A stretch of DNA of 23,117 bases from a virus: IMG/VR virus record IMGVR_UViG_3300042922_000605, positions 1-23,117 of that record; one strand, written 5' to 3'. The notes under the pieces were generated by a model. That model saw nothing but the letters and a program-made list of their open reading frames with translations. It was not told the origin of the DNA and searched no databases. Both the position numbers and the translations under genes were made by a program. This document shows, in pieces, positions 3,180 through 18,134 of the stretch (positions within the stretch are counted from its first letter, which is position 1; each line of letters opens with the position of its first letter).

Positions 3180-4283
3180 TTGCCATATGATAAAGACAGA
3201 ATCAAAGAAGAATTAACATTAGCTGAAATTAAATCCATTATGCAAGATTTAGGATCAGAAGCACCTAAAATAATTGGTAATATGTTAGCATTCCAAACTA
3301 TTTGTCATGGTGGACATAAACATAAGTTATTTTACTATCCCGATTCATTTTCTTTTCATTGCTATACAGATTGCGGAGAAACTTTTGATATTTATGATTT
3401 AGTTATTAGAGTTAATCAGCAACAAGGTAGAGATTTTTCATTTTATGAAGCTGTTAGCTATGTAGCAGACTTCACAGGTAAAAACTATCAATTGAATCAT
3501 TACTTCACTGATCGACAGAGTTTTGTAGTAAATGACTTAGATTGGTTAAACAAATTTAAGAAAAAGCCTAAGACAGACATTCATCTGCCTGTATATAATG
3601 AAACAGTATTAGATGTATTTCTTCATTTACCTCATCAAAATTGGCTAGATGATGGGATATCATATGAAGTTATGATGAAATACGGGATTTGTTATTACGT
3701 AAAAGAGAATGCAATTGTTATCCCTGTAAGGAATCAGCAAGGACAATTAATTGGCATTAGACGAAGAGCATTAGAAAAAGATGAGATTGAATCAGGAAAG
3801 AAATATATGCCATTATCTGTTGCTGGTAAAATTTATTCATATCCTGCTTTATTTAATTTATATGGATTATATGAAAATCAAGAAACAATTGAACGGTTAA
3901 AGAAGTGCTTAATCTTTGAATCTGAGAAATCTGTTATGAAAGTCGAGTCATTCTATCCTGGTAACAATTTCACAGTAGCAACTTGTAATAGTAATCTATC
4001 AACTTGGCAGCGAGATACGATACTGGAGTTAGGTGTAGAAGAAGTTTTTCTCGCTTATGACAAAGAATTTGACGATGCCACAAGTGATAAAGCTGAAAAA
4101 TATAAAAATAAATTATTAAGATTAGCTCAAATGTTTACACCGTATGTTCGTACATATATTATTTGGGATCAAGATGGTTTATTGGAGATAAAAAATGCTC
4201 CATGTGATAAAGGACAAACAATATTTGAGAAATTATTAATGGAGAAATATGAGATAAATACAATGGAGGGTGAAGAAAATTAA
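3180..4283 (+). CDS. yorJ: DnaG-type primase with CHC2-like zinc site and TOPRIM domain, YorJ-like
   Basis: 367 residues. The N-terminal zinc site has C42-H43, H46 and then FHCYTDC with C61 and C65, followed by FDIYDLV, the pattern of phage CHC2 primase fingers. The TOPRIM core contains LIFESEKSVMKVES (244-257), giving the conserved glutamate, and FLAYDKEFDD (290-299), giving the acidic metal site. It should make RNA primers for lagging-strand synthesis. No C-terminal helicase-binding domain is evident and the protein is shorter than bacterial DnaG (about 600 residues). The start is TTG 3180, with GAGAGGTGA about 9 nt upstream; the nearer ATG at 3170/3173 opens only a six- or seven-codon frame. 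Its 3' end overlaps the exonuclease gene by 14 nt. Confidence 0.8.
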   Translation: MPYDKDRIKEELTLAEIKSIMQDLGSEAPKIIGNMLAFQTICHGGHKHKLFYYPDSFSFHCYTDCGETFDIYDLVIRVNQQQGRDFSFYEAVSYVADFTGKNYQLNHYFTDRQSFVVNDLDWLNKFKKKPKTDIHLPVYNETVLDVFLHLPHQNWLDDGISYEVMMKYGICYYVKENAIVIPVRNQQGQLIGIRRRALEKDEIESGKKYMPLSVAGKIYSYPALFNLYGLYENQETIERLKKCLIFESEKSVMKVESFYPGNNFTVATCNSNLSTWQRDTILELGVEEVFLAYDKEFDDATSDKAEKYKNKLLRLAQMFTPYVRTYIIWDQDGLLEIKNAPCDKGQTIFEKLLMEKYEINTMEGEEN

Positions 4284-5994
4284 ATATAAATTAATTGGAA
4301 ATAATACATATGAAAATCCTATTGAAACCGTACTACATAATCGTGGAGTAAATGATAAAGAAAAGTTTTTGAAGCCTGATAAAAGTGTAGATATTCACTA
4401 TTCTAAACTAAAAAATATTCATCAGGCAGTAGAATGTTTACTACAACATATCAGGGATGGAGATGATACTTTTCTTCAGACTGATAGCGACCCTGATGGC
4501 CTTTCATCATCTGCTATTCTTATTCAGTATTTGAATAGCGTATATCCAGATTTTATTAAGAATCACCTTACATATAATCTTCATTCGGGTAAACAACATG
4601 GTATTTTAGCTAAAGATGTTCCTAATCATATTAAATTGGTAATTGTTCCTGATGCTGCTGTACGAATGGAAGAACAGAAACAACTCTATGACCGTGGAAT
4701 TGATTTAATTATTATTGATCATCATGATATAGATGGAGATTCACCTTATTCTATACTTGTAAATAATCAAATTTCAGATGAATTTTCTTCCAAGCAGTTG
4801 GTTGGTGTTGGTATGACACTAAAATTCTTACAAGCATTAGATGATAAATTAGGGTTAAATAATGCTAAACAATACGTTGATTTAGTGGCGTTAGGGCATG
4901 TTAGTGATATTGCTGATATTCGAGATCCACTGGTAAATTATTATATTCATAAAGGGTTTAAACAGATTAATAATCCATTTCTTAAAGACTTGATTGAAAA
5001 ACAATCATTCTCAATGAAAGGAGAGGTTAATCCTACAAGTATTGGATGGTATGTAGTTCCTCTTCTGAATAGTTGCATTCGATCAGGAACACAAGAAGAA
5101 AAAGAAATGACTTTTAAGGCTCTGCTAGGCTCAAATGAGCAGGTTTATTATAAACGTGGTAAATGCTATGAATCTATTCAAAAGCATATGGCAAGACAAT
5201 TAACAAACATTAAACGTAGACAAGACAAAGCTAGAGATAACAGTGTAGCAGCACTTGAAGAAGTCATTAAAAAAAATCATCTTAATAATGATAAGATTCT
5301 TTTTGTGGTCGGTGATGAAACACTTGAGAAAAATTTCAGTGGATTGATTTGTGGTAAATTGGCGAATGAATATAAGCGACCAGCATTAGTTGGAAAGCCA
5401 TTTAATAAAAAATATGTTGCTGGTAGTGGTAGAGGGTATGACAAAGGAGTAGTTAGAGATTTTAAACAAATACTTCAAGATACGGGAGCATTTGAGTTTG
5501 TTGAGGGGCATCCCCAAGCATTCGGTTTTCAGATAGCACAAGAGAATATCCCATTAGTTGTAAATAAATTAAATAATAAATATAAAAATGTTGTTATTAA
5601 TGCTAATGAATATGATGTAGATTTTGTGATCCCATCATTTGAATTTAATTGTGCTTTAATCAAAGAAATTTACAAATATCATTCATTTTGGGCGCATGGT
5701 GTAGAGGAACCATTATTGGTTATTAAGGGGTTAGAATTGACTAAAAGTGATATTGAATTAATAGGCAAAAATAGTAAAAATCTAAAATTTAAACATAAGG
5801 ATATTGAATATATCAAGTTTCGATATGACGAAGACACATACAATAATTTATTTGGACAAGATGGTACATACACTATTGACATAATTGGTCGCTGCGGAAT
5901 TAATGAGTGGCAAGGACATAAAACACCACAAGTAAAAATGGAAGATTTTGAGATTAAAAGTGTGAAGAAGACTGATTGGGCAGATTTATTTTGA
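4270..5994 (+). CDS. yorK: RecJ-like single-strand DNA exonuclease (DHH/DHHA1), YorK-like
   Basis: 574 residues in RecJ layout. Motif I is TDSDPDG (71-77), motif II VPDAA (126-130), motif III DHHD (150-153) and motif IV LGHVSDIADI (208-217); these supply the metal-binding aspartates and histidines. The DHHA1 half has GSGRG near 385-390 and EGHPQAFGF near 413-421. A C-terminal region resembling the RecJ nucleic-acid-binding fold follows. It should degrade single-stranded DNA 5' to 3' in replication or recombination. It starts at GTG 4270 inside the primase gene, with GGAGG just before, so translation is probably coupled. Its TGA stop lies inside the -35 box of the polymerase promoter. Confidence 0.87.
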   Translation: MKKIKYKLIGNNTYENPIETVLHNRGVNDKEKFLKPDKSVDIHYSKLKNIHQAVECLLQHIRDGDDTFLQTDSDPDGLSSSAILIQYLNSVYPDFIKNHLTYNLHSGKQHGILAKDVPNHIKLVIVPDAAVRMEEQKQLYDRGIDLIIIDHHDIDGDSPYSILVNNQISDEFSSKQLVGVGMTLKFLQALDDKLGLNNAKQYVDLVALGHVSDIADIRDPLVNYYIHKGFKQINNPFLKDLIEKQSFSMKGEVNPTSIGWYVVPLLNSCIRSGTQEEKEMTFKALLGSNEQVYYKRGKCYESIQKHMARQLTNIKRRQDKARDNSVAALEEVIKKNHLNNDKILFVVGDETLEKNFSGLICGKLANEYKRPALVGKPFNKKYVAGSGRGYDKGVVRDFKQILQDTGAFEFVEGHPQAFGFQIAQENIPLVVNKLNNKYKNVVINANEYDVDFVIPSFEFNCALIKEIYKYHSFWAHGVEEPLLVIKGLELTKSDIELIGKNSKNLKFKHKDIEYIKFRYDEDTYNNLFGQDGTYTIDIIGRCGINEWQGHKTPQVKMEDFEIKSVKKTDWADLF

Positions 5995-6040: not shown

Positions 6041-8518
6041 ATGCCACCATTAAGCAATAAAAAAATAAACGATTTAATAAATACATATTTTTCAATGCAT
6101 GACCATTCCTGGTATTCTAATATTAGATTACTTGATTCAATTAACCGTCCAGATGAACTAATTAAATATGCAATAAGTTTAGGGTTAAGAGGTATCTGCT
6201 TAACAGATCATGAAGCATTATCAGGACATGTTCAATTTATTCAAGCATTTAAAAAACTAAAACAAGATAAAGATTTTCATGTTCCTGATGATTTTAAAAT
6301 TGGATTAGGTGACGAAATCTACTTGGTGAATGAAGATAGTTTAGATGAGTTGAAAGAGAACTATAAGAACAAAAACCCTGATACTCGTTTTTATCACTTT
6401 CTACTGTTGGCAAAAGATTTAGAGGGATATAGACAGCTACGTATTTTGAGTAGTAAAGCATGGGAGAATGAATTTTCAACAGGTTTTATGGATCGTGTAC
6501 CTACTTTTAAAAATGATTTTAAAGAAATTCTACAGGGTGGGCATGTAATAGGAACGTCTGCCTGTTTAGGCGGATTTTTACCCACAATGATAATTAGGCT
6601 AAGAGACGCACAGGCAGAGAACAAAAATAATAAAATTAAATATTATAAAAAACAGATTGATCAATTTATTAAATTTTGTATAGATGTCTTAGGTAATGAA
6701 AACTTTTTCTTTGAATTACAACCAACGCCCAATGAAGATCAATATTATGTTAATCGTTTTTTAATCAAATTAAGCAAAATCTATAATGTCCGTTATACAA
6801 TAGCTACTGATGCTCATTATTTAAAAAAAGAAGACAGAGAAGCGCACAAGATTTATCTTCAAAGTACAGAAGGTGAACGTGAAGTTGATGACTTCTATGC
6901 TTCAACCTATGTAATGAGTGCTAAAGAAATTCGAGAGTATATGGATAATGAATTAACAGATGAAGAAATCAATGAAGGGTTTAGAACAACTTTAATGATT
7001 GCAGACCAAATTGAACAATATGATTTATACCATAAAACCATTATTCCAACAACAATCATTCCTAATTTTAAAATAAGGCATATTTTTAAACCTGTATATG
7101 ATCGCTTTGAATATATTAAGAATTTTGCATGCTCTGATTACAAGATTGATCGATACTTGCTCTATTTAATTGAAAATGGATTTAATGAAAAACTACGAAA
7201 TAATAAATTAACCAAAGAATATTTTTATACAATTATGGATCGTATTAATATCGAGCTAGGAGAAATTTGGAAAATATCAATTAAGCTTGAAGATCGGCTA
7301 TCGTCTTACTACGTTTTAACAAAAAAAATAGTTGATTTAGTTTGGAGTAAAGGCGATTCAATTGTTGGAGTGTCAAGAGGTAGCGCTGGAGGGTTCTTAA
7401 TCAATTTCTTATTAGGAATTATACAAATGAATCCATTAGATTACAATCTACCACATTTTAGACATCTGACAGCAGAAAGGCCAGAATTACCAGATATCGA
7501 CATAGATTCACAACGTAATAGGCGACAACAAGTAATTCAAGCTATGAGAGATTATTTTGGTGAACGACAAGTATTGAATATTGCAACATTCTCTACTGAG
7601 GGTAGTAAAAGTGCATTATTAAGTGCTGCAAGAGGATTAGGTATTGATGTTGATGACTCTAGTTATATGGCATCATTGGTACCTTCTGAAAGAGGAAAAA
7701 CATGGAGCCTACATGATTGTTTTTTTGGTAGTGTCGATCCTGACAACCCAAGAAAACCAGTTAAAGAACTAGTGAATGTAGTAAATGGATATCCAAAACT
7801 GCAAGAAATTGCTTTAAAAATTGAGGGTGCTATTAAAAATCGATCAATTCATGCTTCAGGTGTTTATATTTACAATGATGATTATACAGAATTTAACGCT
7901 TTGATGAAATCTCCTAAAGGTCAACCGACAACACAATATGACATGGATGATAGTAATTATATGGGTAATTTGAAAGTGGATATGCTTACAGTGAAAAATC
8001 TGGATATTATCCGATCATGCATGGATATGTTAATTAAAGATAATTACATTAAAAAACAAAACACTTTAAGAGATACATATAATAAATATTTACATCCTGA
8101 TGTATTAGATTATGATGATCAGGCAATGTGGAAAAAAGTTGGAGCTAATAGTATTCCAGATTTATTCCAATTTGACACTCCTGTTGGACTGGAATGTGCA
8201 AGAAAAGTTAAACCAACAAATGTCGTGGAATTGGCAGCAGCAAACTCTCTAATGAGACTTATGGCAGAAGACGGTGAACAACCCGTAGATAAGTATATCA
8301 GGCATAAGCAACATCCTGAAGACTGGTTTGAAGAAATGAAAGGCTACGGTTTAACTGATGAAGAAATTGAGATTGCAAAAAAACATTTGGCAGAAGTATA
8401 TGGAGTAGCCGATAGTCAAGAATCTGTTATGCTCTTATCGATGGACAAAGATATAAGTAATTTTACTATTGCCGAATCGAATAAATTGCGAAAAGGGATC
8501 GCTAAATTGATTGGCGCT
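6041..8518 (+). CDS. yorL: DNA polymerase III alpha subunit, DnaE type, exon 1 (PHP and catalytic domains)
   Basis: 826 codons forming the N-terminal part of a family-C polymerase, the phage replicase. The PHP domain starts with HDHSWYSN (20-27) and TDHEALSG (55-62), followed by GTSACLGG and ATDAHYLKKEDREAH. The palm has RGSAGG, then PDIDID with catalytic D485 and D487, and NLKVDML with the third catalytic aspartate D647. HASGVYIY and NKLRKGIAKL are further family motifs. The open frame stops at TAA 8519-8521 because a group I intron begins there; homology resumes at 9837. Start ATG 6041 has only a weak purine stretch upstream, close to the predicted transcription start. The intact SPbeta homologue, as remembered, is about 1305 residues in one piece. 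Confidence 0.88.
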
Positions 8519-9836
8519 TAATGCAGAAATGTATTAATGATAAGTGGGCAAAATCGGTGAAGGCTAAGTCTTGTGGGCGCAAGACAGGAGCGACACTTAT
8601 CGGAGCTAAACAAATCGACAAAAATGAAGAAGAATTAATTATACAATTGCAAAAGCAAGGATTCAAAAGTATTGATATAGCAAAGAAGTTGCATAGACAT
8701 CCTACATCTATATGTCACATATTACGTAAGAATGGAATACATAATATAAATAATATTAAATTGAAAAGAGAAGAAATTGATCAAATAAAAGGACTGTACT
8801 TAAGTGGGATGACCATTCAAGAGATACACAAAAAATTAGATTGCTTAAATGTTAGTGAAGGAGCAATTAACTACGTTCTGAGAAAAGAAAATGTCACTCG
8901 TCCAAATGGAAAACAAGCAACGATTGATCATAATTATTTTGAAACTATTGATACAGAAGAAAAAGCATATTTTCTTGGGTTTTTGGCGGCTGATGGATGT
9001 GTCAGGATAGAGAAAAAATCACAAAATGGCTATTCATACTGCATTAGGTTGGAATTAAAGGTTGAAGATAAGTATATAATTGAAAAGCTCAGAGATGAAT
9101 TAAAAAGTGATCTTACAGTAAAAGAGTATATTGGACAAAGTGGTTTTAAAAATAAGAAGTATAACAAGCTAAAACGTAATGCTTACATAAGTTTTTATTC
9201 TAAAAAAATATTTAATGATTTAGCGAAATTAGGAATACATCCAGGTAAAACATTCAACTTATCTAAACTCCCATGTCTTAATCCAACAATGATGAAACAT
9301 TATATAAGAGGATTTTTTGATGGAGATGGAACAGTTTATATTAATAAAAGCTATGCTGAGCCAAGGACTATTTTTGGTTTTTATGGCACAAATAGCTTTT
9401 TAAATAGCTTGCAAGATTATCTAATAGATATAAATATATTAAATAAAAAACGAAAAATTTTCAAAAAGAAAGTTGAGAAGGTTAGTTTTGTCACTTATTC
9501 AACAATAAATGATATCAACAATTTTTACCATTACATATATGACAGTGCAACGATCTACTTAACACGTAAGAAAAGGAAATTTGATTTATACAGATAAATA
9601 TTAAGTCGCCCACAAGATAAGCTAATACCGAGGTAAAGCACAATGTAATAATTGTGGCTCACCGTAACGCATAGCAGATGAAACTCATATGAGAATATAA
9701 TTCTGCCACGAGTGCCCGACATCTGAACAAGTAAAGTTGAAGATGAATATGTATGCTGGACTGAATCAGAATTGACTGATTGTAACTGAAAAGTGATGAG
9801 GGAAACTTCCAGAACTAGAGGATAAAAAGCCTTTAG
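8519..9836 (+). mobile_element. Group I intron with a LAGLIDADG endonuclease gene, inserted in the polymerase gene
   Basis: The polymerase frame stops at 8519 and family homology resumes near 9837, so 1318 nt are foreign. The proposed ends follow group I rules: exon 1 ends in T (8518), the intron ends in G (9836), and both exons meet at a codon boundary. Flanking the endonuclease gene are structured sequences resembling a group I core: AAATCGGTGAAGG near 8551-8563, and GCTAATACCGAGG, CGTAACGCATAGC and GAAGATGAATATG in the 3' part. Visible helices include GTCTTG/CAAGAC (8568-8573/8580-8585), CACAAT/ATTGTG (9639-9644/9651-9656) and AATCAG/CTGATT (9764-9769/9776-9781). P1 could not be drawn convincingly, so the ends may be off by a few bases. 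A stop codon directly after the 5' site is common in phage introns. Confidence 0.78.
8521..9597 (+). CDS. LAGLIDADG homing endonuclease encoded in the intron
   Basis: 358 residues if begun at ATG 8521. Two LAGLIDADG helices, YFLGFLAADGC (150-160) and YIRGFFDGDGT (261-271), each contribute a catalytic aspartate, so it should act as a monomer cutting the intronless polymerase allele. Two helix-turn-helix-like segments precede them: DIAKKLHRHPTSICHILRKNG (52-72, joined here only as a position range) and the region 98-122. The tail is strongly basic. The first 30 or so residues are encoded by sequence that also belongs to the intron core, and no Shine-Dalgarno precedes 8521, so the true start is probably further in, around 8600-8655, perhaps at a non-ATG codon. 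Endonuclease genes of this type commonly sit in a peripheral loop of the intron. Confidence 0.85.
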   Translation: MQKCINDKWAKSVKAKSCGRKTGATLIGAKQIDKNEEELIIQLQKQGFKSIDIAKKLHRHPTSICHILRKNGIHNINNIKLKREEIDQIKGLYLSGMTIQEIHKKLDCLNVSEGAINYVLRKENVTRPNGKQATIDHNYFETIDTEEKAYFLGFLAADGCVRIEKKSQNGYSYCIRLELKVEDKYIIEKLRDELKSDLTVKEYIGQSGFKNKKYNKLKRNAYISFYSKKIFNDLAKLGIHPGKTFNLSKLPCLNPTMMKHYIRGFFDGDGTVYINKSYAEPRTIFGFYGTNSFLNSLQDYLIDINILNKKRKIFKKKVEKVSFVTYSTINDINNFYHYIYDSATIYLTRKKRKFDLYR

Positions 9837-9920
9837 GATAACACAACGAAAAAAAAGAAGAAAATGATTAAAGAGGTTAAGGAACTGTTCTACAAAAAGG
9901 GTGAAGCAAATGGCTCGTAA
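9837..9920 (+). CDS. yorL: Polymerase exon 2, in-frame segment ending at an early TAA
   Basis: After splicing, the exon 1 frame continues for 27 codons through KKKKKMIKEVKELFYKKG and GEANGS to TAA at 9918-9920. The residues KEVKELFYKKGEANG correspond to the helix after LRKxxxK in DnaE polymerases (family pattern FxxGxxxNG), so this is genuine polymerase sequence. The family homology then continues without a gap, but in the +1 frame, from RKEFLNYIWDTQ. Either the gene ends here and a separate polypeptide starts at 9910, or one extra base (in GGCTCG, 9912-9917) has broken it. The N-terminal product would be about 853 residues. Confidence 0.65.
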   Translation, partial: DNTTKKKKKMIKEVKELFYKKGEANGS

Positions 9921-11361
9921 AGAGTTTTTAAATTATATATGGGATACACAAATAGTTCCACAAATTGGCTATTCATTTAGCCGTTTACATTCTGAAGGAT
10001 ATTCGCTCATCGCCTTACAAGAAATGAATCTTGCTCATCGTTTTCCACAAATTTATTGGGATACTGCATGTTTGAGTATTGATGCATCTGCTGACGATGA
10101 TAATGATAGTAATAAATCTACTAATTATGGAAAGATAGCTTCTGCTATTGGAAAAATGCAAAGCAGGGGGACTAACGTGGCACTCCCTGATATTAATAGG
10201 GCTGATTTCGGTTTTAAGCCTGATGTTAAAAGTAATTCAATAATTTTCGGATTGAAAGCTATACAAGGCATGAATGATGATATTGTACGAGAAATTATTG
10301 TACACAGATCTTATCAATCCTTTCAGAATTTCATTAGTCAGATGTTTGTTGCTAAACTTGTTCAAAAGAAACACGTACTGCAATTGATTAAAGCTGGATG
10401 TTTTGATTCACTTGGAGATCGTATAGAAATCATGAAAGAATTTATTAAATCTATTGCAGAACCTAAAACAAAGCTAACAATGGCAAATTTATCTTCTATA
10501 ATTAATGAAAATCTTATTCCAAATGAATTACACAATTTGGTTAGACTGTTCAAGTTTAAAAAATACATATCAAATAATAAATTCATATATAAAGTCGTCA
10601 CTAAGCCAAAAGATAAGTGGATCAAATTAGATGTAATATCAATGGATTATATCAGCAATACATTTGAAGACGAAGATATTAAACAAATGCAAGTTGAAGT
10701 ATCTGATGATGGCACGATGATTATTTCAGAAAAGCAATTTACAAAAATTTATAATAAAACAATGCAGCCAATAAAAGACTGGCTGACAACAGATGAAGCA
10801 TTAAAAGTCTACAATAGTAGATTGATTGAAAATGAATGGCAAAAAGACTGTTCAGGCACAATTTCTCATTGGGAAATGGAATCAATATCTATGTATTTCC
10901 ATGAGCATGAATTAGCTCATGTTGCTAAAGAAAGATATGGAATTAAAGATTTCTTTAAGCAGTCACCAGAACCAGTAAAAGGGAAACCTTATAAATGGAA
11001 AAATAAACAAATGTATCAATATGAAATTTATCGCATTGCTGGAACTGTTCTTGATAAAGATAAAAATCGACATACAATCACCTTGCTCACAGATGAAGGA
11101 GTAGTAAATGTCCGTGTTTATGCTGGACTTTACAGTTATTTTGCGAGACAAATATCTAAACCTGTAAATGGTAAAAAGAAAGTTATTGATCCGTCATGGT
11201 TTAAGAAGGGGACAATGCTGCTTATCACAGGTTTCAGAAGTGGAGATAATTTTATTCCAAAGAAATATAAGGATTCGATTTATCAACACGTGATCGAACG
11301 TATTGATTCTATAGATGAAGAAGGTAGATTAACACTCACAGCAAATAGACCGCAAGTTTAA
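9910..11361 (+). CDS. yorL: DNA polymerase III alpha subunit, C-terminal part, as a separate frame
   Basis: 483 codons from ATG 9910. The product begins exactly where DnaE homology resumes: YIWDTQIVPQIGYSFSRLHSE matches the family segment around FAGYGFNKSHA (split here for length), then YSLIALQEMNLAHRFP. A helix-hairpin-helix region with LIKAGCFDSLG (near residue 160) and an OB-like C-terminal domain follow. These are the fingers end, (HhH)2 and OB domains that bind DNA. AAGGGTG at 9897-9903 lies 6 nt before ATG 9910, a good ribosome binding site, and the start overlaps the upstream TAA by 11 nt, so reinitiation is plausible. GTG 9901 is an alternative start but lacks spacing from the Shine-Dalgarno. 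Without splicing or a frame change this part lacks all catalytic aspartates. Confidence 0.8.
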   Translation: MARKEFLNYIWDTQIVPQIGYSFSRLHSEGYSLIALQEMNLAHRFPQIYWDTACLSIDASADDDNDSNKSTNYGKIASAIGKMQSRGTNVALPDINRADFGFKPDVKSNSIIFGLKAIQGMNDDIVREIIVHRSYQSFQNFISQMFVAKLVQKKHVLQLIKAGCFDSLGDRIEIMKEFIKSIAEPKTKLTMANLSSIINENLIPNELHNLVRLFKFKKYISNNKFIYKVVTKPKDKWIKLDVISMDYISNTFEDEDIKQMQVEVSDDGTMIISEKQFTKIYNKTMQPIKDWLTTDEALKVYNSRLIENEWQKDCSGTISHWEMESISMYFHEHELAHVAKERYGIKDFFKQSPEPVKGKPYKWKNKQMYQYEIYRIAGTVLDKDKNRHTITLLTDEGVVNVRVYAGLYSYFARQISKPVNGKKKVIDPSWFKKGTMLLITGFRSGDNFIPKKYKDSIYQHVIERIDSIDEEGRLTLTANRPQV

Positions 11362-11997: not shown

Positions 11998-12501
11998 ATG
12001 TCATTTTATGTGTGTGGATGTGACGCATCTGGTAAAACAACATTAGAAGCATCATTAGCTAAAAAAACTAATTTACCTATTATTAAAGGGTCATCTTTTG
12101 AATTAGCAAAATGTTCGAATGAAGAACTATTTAATCATTTTAAAAAGATCGCATTAAGCACAAAAAACTTAATTGTGGATCGTTTTGCCCCTTGCAACGT
12201 GGTGTATGCAAACAAGTATTCTGATTACGCTAAACTTACAGATGAACAATTTAATTATATTATGTCTATATTAGAAGTCAATAACGATGTTATTGTTTAT
12301 GTTCGTGCTGATCCAGAAGTAGTTAAACATCGTCTGCGACAACGTGGAGATGAATATATTCATGAAAAAGATGTAGATTCAATTATTAAGTCATATGATA
12401 ATCTATTTCATAATGCCAAGTTTAAATACATAGAAATTGATACGTCTACTGGAACTGACCCAACTATACTTACTGATTTTCTCGTAAATAATATTAAATA
12501 A
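11998..12501 (+). CDS. Thymidylate/deoxynucleoside-monophosphate kinase-like P-loop kinase
   Basis: 167 residues. The P-loop GCDASGKTT lies at 7-15, DRF at 61-63 is the DRx motif of thymidylate kinases, and the basic lid HRLRQRGDE lies at 111-119. It is shorter than bacterial Tmk (about 210 residues) but has the right order of elements. It probably phosphorylates a deoxynucleoside monophosphate to supply phage DNA synthesis; the exact substrate cannot be read from sequence. Start ATG 11998 has AAGGAGAG 9 nt upstream. A perfect promoter begins 4 nt after its stop. SPbeta carries kinases of this sort nearby (YorR/YorS), but the correspondence is uncertain, so no symbol is given. Confidence 0.75.
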   Translation: MSFYVCGCDASGKTTLEASLAKKTNLPIIKGSSFELAKCSNEELFNHFKKIALSTKNLIVDRFAPCNVVYANKYSDYAKLTDEQFNYIMSILEVNNDVIVYVRADPEVVKHRLRQRGDEYIHEKDVDSIIKSYDNLFHNAKFKYIEIDTSTGTDPTILTDFLVNNIK

Positions 12502-16610: not shown

Positions 16611-18134
16611 TTGGCAATTTTGGAGAAAGAAGTTTGGATTGGACTAATAGGAAATAATATTGAATACTGGGAAAATAAGGGGTATAAAATACCAAGAACA
16701 AAGAGTAAAGATTACAAATTACATGTTAAAATAGGAACTAAGATATTAGTAAAAGTTGACGATTTACCAAAAAAAAGTTCAATAAAAGTTACAAAAATAT
16801 GTGATGTATGTGGAGAAACATCGAAAAATCAATCTTATGAAAATATAAATAATTATAGAAATAGAACTGACGGGAAAGACAGATGTCATAAATGTGGATT
16901 AGCATATGCACATAATTTACAGAAACATAATGCCCCATATGAAAAATCGCTATATTATTATGCGATAAGAAATGATAAGAAATACTTGCTTGATGAATAC
17001 AGTAATAAAAATAAATATTTGCCAGAGCAGGTATACCGCAGTTCAAATCAAGAATATTTGTGGACGTGTCTGAACTGCAAATCAGAATATACAATGAATA
17101 TTAGTGAAAGAACAATTAACGAATGTAGTTGTCCATATTGCGCGGGGAAGAAAGTGAATAAGACAAACTGCTTGTGGACGACTCATCCAGAAATAGCCAA
17201 ACATTTAAAAGATCAGTCTTTAGGATATGAAATAACAGCAGGAAGTAATAAGGAAGTTTTATTTATATGTCCAGATTGTAAATATGAATTTAATAGAATT
17301 ATTACGAATGTGAATAAACGTAGTTGCTCTTGTCCAAAATGTAGTGATGGAATTAGTTATCCAGCAAAATTTATGCATTCCATACTTGATCAGTTGGTTA
17401 AGAAAGGAGAATTAGACGTATACAAAAGTGAAAAAAAATTTAGTCATCCTGATTGGGGAGATAAAAGAAGCGATTTTTATATTTCATCAAAAAATATGAT
17501 TATAGAGACAAATGGAGAACAACATAAAAATGGTAGTTTTTCTAATTTTAGAAACGGTAGAACGGCAAAAGAAGAACAAGAAAATGATAAATTAAAACGT
17601 AAAATTGCTCAAGAAAAATTTGGTATCAAGCATTATATATTTTTAGATTGCGCAAAATCAGAAAAAGAATACATAAAAAATAGTGTATTAAAAAGTGAAA
17701 TATCAAACATATTTGATTTAGCTAAAATTGATTGGGATGAGTGTGCTAAATTTGCAATGTCATCAATGATGATAAAAGCATGTAAAATGTGGAACTCAGG
17801 AAAATATAAATATCCATTTGAAATAGCAAATAAATTGAATATAAGCGACTGTTCAGTAAAAAGGTATCTAAAACGTGGTTCCGAAGCAGGAATAATTAAT
17901 TATATAAAACGCAGACAAATTATTCAATTATCTTCAAGTGATAATATTATACATATATGGAAAAATCAACGATGTGCTAGTAATGCTATTAATATATCAC
18001 CATCAAGTATATCAGTTGTATGTTCGGGTAAATACAAAACGGCAGGAGGATTTAAATGGATGTACTTATCCGATTATCAAAAGATTCATCCAGAGTTTAC
18101 AGATGAAGATGTACAGAAATACTTAGTAAAATAA
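16611..18134 (+). CDS. Free-standing homing endonuclease, zinc-ribbon and Vsr-like (EDxHD) type
   Basis: 507 residues. Six CxxC pairs (C64/67, C92/95, C153/156, C174/177, C220/223, C241/244) form zinc ribbons of the type repeated in DUF4379-like DNA-binding modules. The nuclease core follows at about 249-350: YPAKFMHSIL, RSDFYI with D288, IIETNGEQH with E299 and H305, and YIFLDC, which fits Vsr/PD-(D/E)XK-like homing endonucleases such as I-Bth0305I. The C-terminus has a helix-turn-helix (about 402-422) and a NUMOD1-like repeat (SSSISVVCSG... AGGFKWMYL). Start TTG 16611 follows the GGAGG in the upstream hairpin by 11 nt. No disrupted host gene is obvious around it, so it appears to lie between genes. 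Confidence 0.8.
   Translation: MAILEKEVWIGLIGNNIEYWENKGYKIPRTKSKDYKLHVKIGTKILVKVDDLPKKSSIKVTKICDVCGETSKNQSYENINNYRNRTDGKDRCHKCGLAYAHNLQKHNAPYEKSLYYYAIRNDKKYLLDEYSNKNKYLPEQVYRSSNQEYLWTCLNCKSEYTMNISERTINECSCPYCAGKKVNKTNCLWTTHPEIAKHLKDQSLGYEITAGSNKEVLFICPDCKYEFNRIITNVNKRSCSCPKCSDGISYPAKFMHSILDQLVKKGELDVYKSEKKFSHPDWGDKRSDFYISSKNMIIETNGEQHKNGSFSNFRNGRTAKEEQENDKLKRKIAQEKFGIKHYIFLDCAKSEKEYIKNSVLKSEISNIFDLAKIDWDECAKFAMSSMMIKACKMWNSGKYKYPFEIANKLNISDCSVKRYLKRGSEAGIINYIKRRQIIQLSSSDNIIHIWKNQRCASNAINISPSSISVVCSGKYKTAGGFKWMYLSDYQKIHPEFTDEDVQKYLVK

Follow-up and report, generated by a model that had tools for sequence, protein, structure and literature searches.

The window analysed here, a virus record of 23,117 bases, carries a YorL-type family-C (DnaE/PolIIIalpha) DNA polymerase on two open reading frames (ORFs) that overlap by 11 nt. 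The sequence slightly favours, at a little better than even odds, a bipartite family-C replicase whose second subunit would be started by termination-reinitiation; this restart, the pairing of the two subunits and their activity are inferences. The preliminary description had already suggested a replicase made as two coupled polypeptides that reassemble. This continues to be the best-supported reading, given a break shared between phages, selection on both halves, the overlapping ribosome site and start codon, and the location in a turn between helices, with recent inactivation and ribosomal frameshifting as its rivals. A more detailed version, to which we give somewhat less than an even chance, has two non-covalent subunits, divided within the finger domain and lacking an intein, their stoichiometry set through the 11-nt overlapping restart, and the arrangement held by selection while the rest of the gene neared synonymous saturation.

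The gene order of the window is that of yorJ-yorM in SPbeta, with an AAA ATPase, a DnaB-like helicase, a primase-like protein, a RecJ-like nuclease, the polymerase, a 3D protein and a kinase-like protein. The family-C domain set (PHP, palm, fingers and HhH) is complete only when both polymerase ORFs, which together match Pfam PHP, DNA_pol3_alpha, DNA_pol3_finger and HHH_6, are combined. Exon 1 (6041 to 8503, plus strand, like the other features of the polymerase gene given below) codes for the PHP domain, the palm and most of the fingers (Pfam PHP, DNA_pol3_alpha and DNA_pol3_finger), and its alignment with the relative L003 ends at an intron. Exon 2 (9849 to 9920) is the tail of this N-terminal ORF, translated as KKKKKMIKEVKELFYKKGEANGS. 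Once the intron (8504 to 9848) is removed, the ORF has 844 codons, for a product of 98.0 kDa. The C-terminal ORF (9910 to 11361, 483 codons, 56.1 kDa) codes for the remaining finger helices and the HhH and OB part (Pfam HHH_6, E 3e-15; phrog_12219, phrog_405 and phrog_20695), and is 49% identical to YorL over 98% of the query. The expected 56 kDa for the second product was thus accurate, and the 97 kDa given for the first has to be raised to 98.0. Both catalytic motifs of the palm, PDIDID and KVDM, are in the N-terminal ORF, and their aspartates are invariant in our alignment A4. The divide between the palm and the HhH/OB domains is less clean than had been described: the break lies inside the finger region, and the final portion of the fingers (FLNYIWDTQ...YSFSRLHSEGYS...) is encoded by the second ORF.

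At the break, the exon 2 frame reads ...KEVKELFYKKGEANGS and then TAA (9918 to 9920), while the residues typical of the family, ...G(T/A)RKEFLNYIWDTQ, resume in the +1 frame, which is translated as MARKEFLNYIWDTQIVP from the ATG at 9910. The split into two frames, with this stop and this restart, is as first described, and so is the 11-nt overlap ATGGCTCGTAA (9910 to 9920), which contains the start of one ORF and the stop of the other and is identical in the relatives L002 and L003, together with the Shine-Dalgarno-like AAGGGTG (9897 to 9903) ending 6 nt upstream of the ATG. Two further details needed correction. The last residues of the first product are ...ANGS and not ...ANG, with the stop where it had been placed. 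The change, described as one base, is equivalent to +1 in frame, but when judged against intact relatives, GR1 (ENGKKNGTRKEFLDYVW) and L135 (GGEKTGARKVFLDYVW), on balance two bases are missing from the codons of the turn; a gain of one base would leave the protein one residue short of the family length. Neither ORF carries extra residues that could belong to a split intein: the first ends within the family turn and the second begins there with M-A-R-K-E-F. No inserted endonuclease gene or spacer was found between the halves, which overlap by 11 nt. A LAGLIDADG ORF does sit in the intron that ends 61 nt before ATG 9910, but this intron is absent from L002 and L003, which share the break. Two other possibilities were considered and discarded, i.e., a second ORF beginning at GTG 9901, which has a weaker ribosome-binding site (-5.3), and transcriptional slippage on the run of eight A at 9849 to 9856, since the +1 frame has a stop between the run and the break.

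A shared break among YorL-like relatives had been proposed as a check, and it is present in L002 and L003, which come from assemblies 3300042934 and 3300042923 and are the split form's only close relatives in IMG/VR. Over 10,233 bases these two contigs do not differ, so that the split clade is small: the window plus one further phage present in two assemblies. The break is the same letter for letter in both (also in L091), in flanking sequence that is only ca. 82% identical to the window. Single metagenome contigs often have indels, and an assembly error had been one of the alternatives put forward, but the same letters in contigs of two other assemblies, ca. 18% different from the window around the break, exclude it for practical purposes, and a sequencing or assembly error is now extremely improbable. 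In the comparison, the frame runs uninterrupted across the break position in all 107 distinct intact homologues. The loci checked came from two overlapping viral scans (80 each) and from genomes (30), and except for L002 and L003 they either read through or are interrupted nearby, at GY|SFS (L039 to L044 and L090) or at LLD|YVW (L094), apart from a few fragments. No further member was found in additional viral scans, in the 30-locus genome scan or in two largely overlapping draws of 397 genomes, and a pattern scan for the break sequence returned only L002 and L003. As far as these comparisons of sequence reach, absence from the other checked loci makes the break specific to one clade. For the N part, the protein of the window is 89% identical to that of L002, whereas none of the other five relatives in the comparison exceeds 54%. 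The interruption in L094, a candidate for a second split, turned out to be an intron-like insertion with a LAGLIDADG-like ORF. Separately, the C part of dnaE runs into an early stop in L082 and L160 (at 5292 in L082), in L119 (4926) and in L120 (835), which may mark additional introns or breaks.

We located the break on an AlphaFold model of the intact relative L014 (mean pLDDT of 88.6), which matches DnaE chains with Z of 27 to 37. In this model, helices 493-509 and 514-528 of the finger domain are joined by a four-residue turn (510-513), and the break maps to it, with the end of the first ORF at the equivalent of residue 512 and the start of the second at about 511-513. The halves are thus PHP, palm and most of the fingers on one side and the remaining finger helices, HhH and OB on the other. 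It should be noted that a break in a turn is not a rare outcome, since 37% of the residues of the model are outside helix and strand.

Under the two-subunit reading, the split would have originated by the net loss of two bases in the codons of this tight turn, a place where a break of the chain is likely to be tolerated. Ribosomes would translate the spliced first ORF as far as TAA 9918, and either the ribosome terminating there or a neighbour would restart at ATG 9910, eight bases back, aided by AAGGGTG. The resulting polypeptides of 98 and 56 kDa would then pair through an interface in the finger domain to give a working polymerase. The AAGGGTG site pairs with the 16S tail with an energy of -8.5 kcal/mol in both phages, equal to that at the start of the kinase-like gene of the window at 11998, and its distance to the ATG is that of an initiation site. 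ATG 9910 and TAA 9918 lie within about 10 nt of each other and are accompanied by this site; start/stop overlaps within 10 nt are taken as a signature of translational coupling in surveys of frame transitions (PMC3711429), and short gene overlaps are enriched among subunits of one complex (PMC10666635). However, pairing as good as this is found at 6.7% of all ATGs in the window, and 11 of the 107 intact homologues have an off-frame NTG near the break position with pairing at least as good (an ATG in only 1 of the 11), so the restart signal alone is only moderately significant. The site and the ATG follow in part from the coding sequence of KKGEANG itself. Sequence coding for KKG-x-x-NG tends to spell a ribosome site, and hence a small deletion at this point can give a second gene at once. 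A possible 9-bp long-range stem enclosing the restart site was seen at 9880 to 9960 in both the window and L003, with weak statistics (z of -1.1 and -1.8).

Both halves show the marks of strong purifying selection. Between the window and L002/L003, dN/dS is 0.047 in the N part (after the intron that L002 and L003 have of their own) and 0.073 in the C part, at a dS of about 1.3, with 0.048 for the first 484 codons, and the proteins are 89 and 85% identical, respectively. Intact neighbours have higher values (0.10 for the C part of recJ, 0.23 for the primase and 0.24 for the 3D protein), and no further stop or frame change was found in the polymerase ORFs of either lineage. Neither relaxed selection nor additional lesions, the usual signs of a pseudogene, are therefore seen, although the break itself may be recent. 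If the common ancestor already had the break, function has been retained in both halves ever since. The age of the break is connected with a 93-nt tract around it (9876 to 9968) that has a single mismatch to L002/L003 and diverges less than any other 30-codon stretch among the codons compared. Within eight codons either side of the junction, none of 15 codons has a synonymous change (5.9 expected, p = 0.00025), and an identical codon run as long as the one at the junction came up in 33 of 5,000 permutations. With two sequences to compare, the tract may reflect constraint on the region of the translation start or a short recent exchange; tracts of 60 to 104 nt that are identical between the window phage and L002/L003 occur elsewhere too. 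If it does come from a recent exchange between mosaic phages, the break could postdate the divergence seen elsewhere in the gene. Co-conversion with the intron was considered as the cause of the tract and is disfavoured, as the 27 bases adjacent to the intron, which precede the tract, include several differences.

This tract is where the reading as an inactivating deletion, which we consider unlikely though a serious competitor, finds one of its arguments. The polymerase gene would have died recently, the break would have spread between mosaic phages by recombination, and replication would depend on the host or on another polymerase. A break inside an almost identical stretch of an otherwise 82% identical gene is what such a spread would leave, and the identical tracts elsewhere between the same phages indicate that exchange is common. 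The frame break in recJ of L002 and L003 could also mean decay, and in L004, whose upstream part matches the window at 94% identity, dnaE is intact and a different allele, i.e., alleles are swapped within the group; polymerase swapping has been documented for the clade that includes Spbetavirus (PMC11348598). On the other hand, the two ORFs are free of other lesions in both lineages, with dN/dS of 0.05 to 0.07 on both sides of the break, and the tract has the break at its centre and stops short of the intron edge, which does not fit simple co-conversion with the intron. Besides, the same dead copy of an essential-looking gene is unlikely in two phages unless its loss is neutral.

Ribosomal frameshifting (+1 or -2), by which part of the translations would yield a full-length polymerase, is to us more doubtful still. 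The +1 frame contains no stop between about 9868 and 9918, a -2 slip at the run AAAAAGGG within the overlap would give a product of the family length, and recJ of the same phage group has a strong candidate +1 site, CCC_UGA_C, of a type documented in Listeria phages (PMC5009743). At the polymerase break, however, the stop TCG_TAA allows no re-pairing and its context is not UGA_C, whereas AAAAAGGG could re-pair but is not followed by a slow A-site codon. The frameshift site of RF2 has a short spacing from its Shine-Dalgarno sequence. The 6 nt between the Shine-Dalgarno-like site and ATG 9910 are the spacing of initiation, unlike that at the RF2 site. Nor is the downstream RNA stably folded in L003 (z of 0.2), and it is only weakly so in the window (z of -1.9), within a range of -1.9 to +0.9 across the stretches tested. 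Taken together, the sequence features make frameshifting appear less likely than a coupled restart.

The closest known relatives of this polymerase are YorL of Bacillus phage SPbeta (SPBc2) and similar proteins, which share the yorJ/K/L/M-like gene order, the domains and 49% identity over the C part; YorL, however, is a single continuous ORF of 1,305 amino acids through the break position. A replicative polymerase on two polypeptides without an intein is found in Aeromonas phages 25 and 44RR (gp43A/gp43B), and the halves of phage 25 copurify with activity (PMC2988022), but these belong to family B and are parted by a homing endonuclease gene or an untranslated spacer instead of an 11-nt overlap. 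Phage Aeh1 has another important enzyme in pieces, the split NrdA, which is active (PMC2988022), in this case produced by insertion of an endonuclease gene (mobE). Pairs of genes joined by termination-reinitiation likewise have a start a few bases before the upstream stop and an internal Shine-Dalgarno site, but usually the motif is ATGA or TGATG between separate genes, whereas here there is an 11-nt overlap inside one ancestral gene. Cyanobacteria, too, have a family-C polymerase on two polypeptides, the split DnaE (Npu/Ssp DnaE intein), with the break in the finger region, although its halves are ligated by a split intein, of which the window ORFs have no part; we take its intein site (before CFNKSHS) to be ca. 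20 residues downstream of the window break. No report of a non-intein split DnaE was found in the literature searched, most subscription journals being outside the search. If the two-subunit reading is correct, this would be, as far as searched, the first family-C replicase that is cut in the finger domain and works as two pieces with no intein involved. The break would also offer a cut site found in nature to those who construct split DnaE polymerases, and one small deletion would have sufficed to make an enzyme of two subunits, since a start signal was already present in another frame of the coding sequence.

Introns are a recurrent feature of dnaE in this phage group. The window intron, between the IA and KKKKK codons, is a clean insertion relative to L003 and is absent from L002 and L003; its removal brings AKKKKKM (...GIAKKKKKMIKEV...) back into frame and gives the same length as in L003. 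A U precedes the intron and a G stands at its end, as in group I, which is not proof of that class; no Rfam model matches 8504 to 9848, and the intron is possibly divergent or of an unusual class. It contains an ORF of 358 amino acids (8521 to 9597) resembling LAGLIDADG_3 homing endonucleases (Pfam E 2e-8; phrog_4645, endonuclease). The group has dnaE introns at three more sites, PD|IDID in L002/L003 (3923 to 4937 in L002), LLD|YVW in L094 (3366 to 4503) and GY|SFS in L039 to L044 (upstream of 4501), the last of which presumably corresponds to the split-intein position of cyanobacteria. By eye, the intron ORF of L002 is GIY-YIG-like, and that of L094 is LAGLIDADG-like. The family phrog_20695, a separate C-terminal-only PHROGs family labelled "DNA binding protein", begins near GY|SFS, and its members are probably annotated pieces of intron-interrupted dnaE. 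Elsewhere in the window, an ORF of 507 amino acids (16611 to 18134) resembles HNH/homing endonucleases (phrog_559 and phrog_9084).

The recJ/yorK homologue of L002/L003 and L004 has a +1 frame change exactly in the DHH motif (DSDP|DGLSSS), at GAT_CCC_TGA_C (2934 to 2955 in L091; 1922 to 1933 in L004), a known type of +1 frameshift site (CCC_UGA), and recJ of the window (4270 to 5994) is continuous there. The first 74 codons of recJ have no synonymous difference between L002 and L004, which indicates that this segment was shared recently. L004 (L013) is a mosaic: it combines its similarity to the window upstream and its own intact dnaE allele with a C-terminal two thirds of dnaE that is mostly 93 to 98% identical to the split allele of L002. 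Exchange between L002 and L004 is clear for the final two thirds of the dnaE C part.
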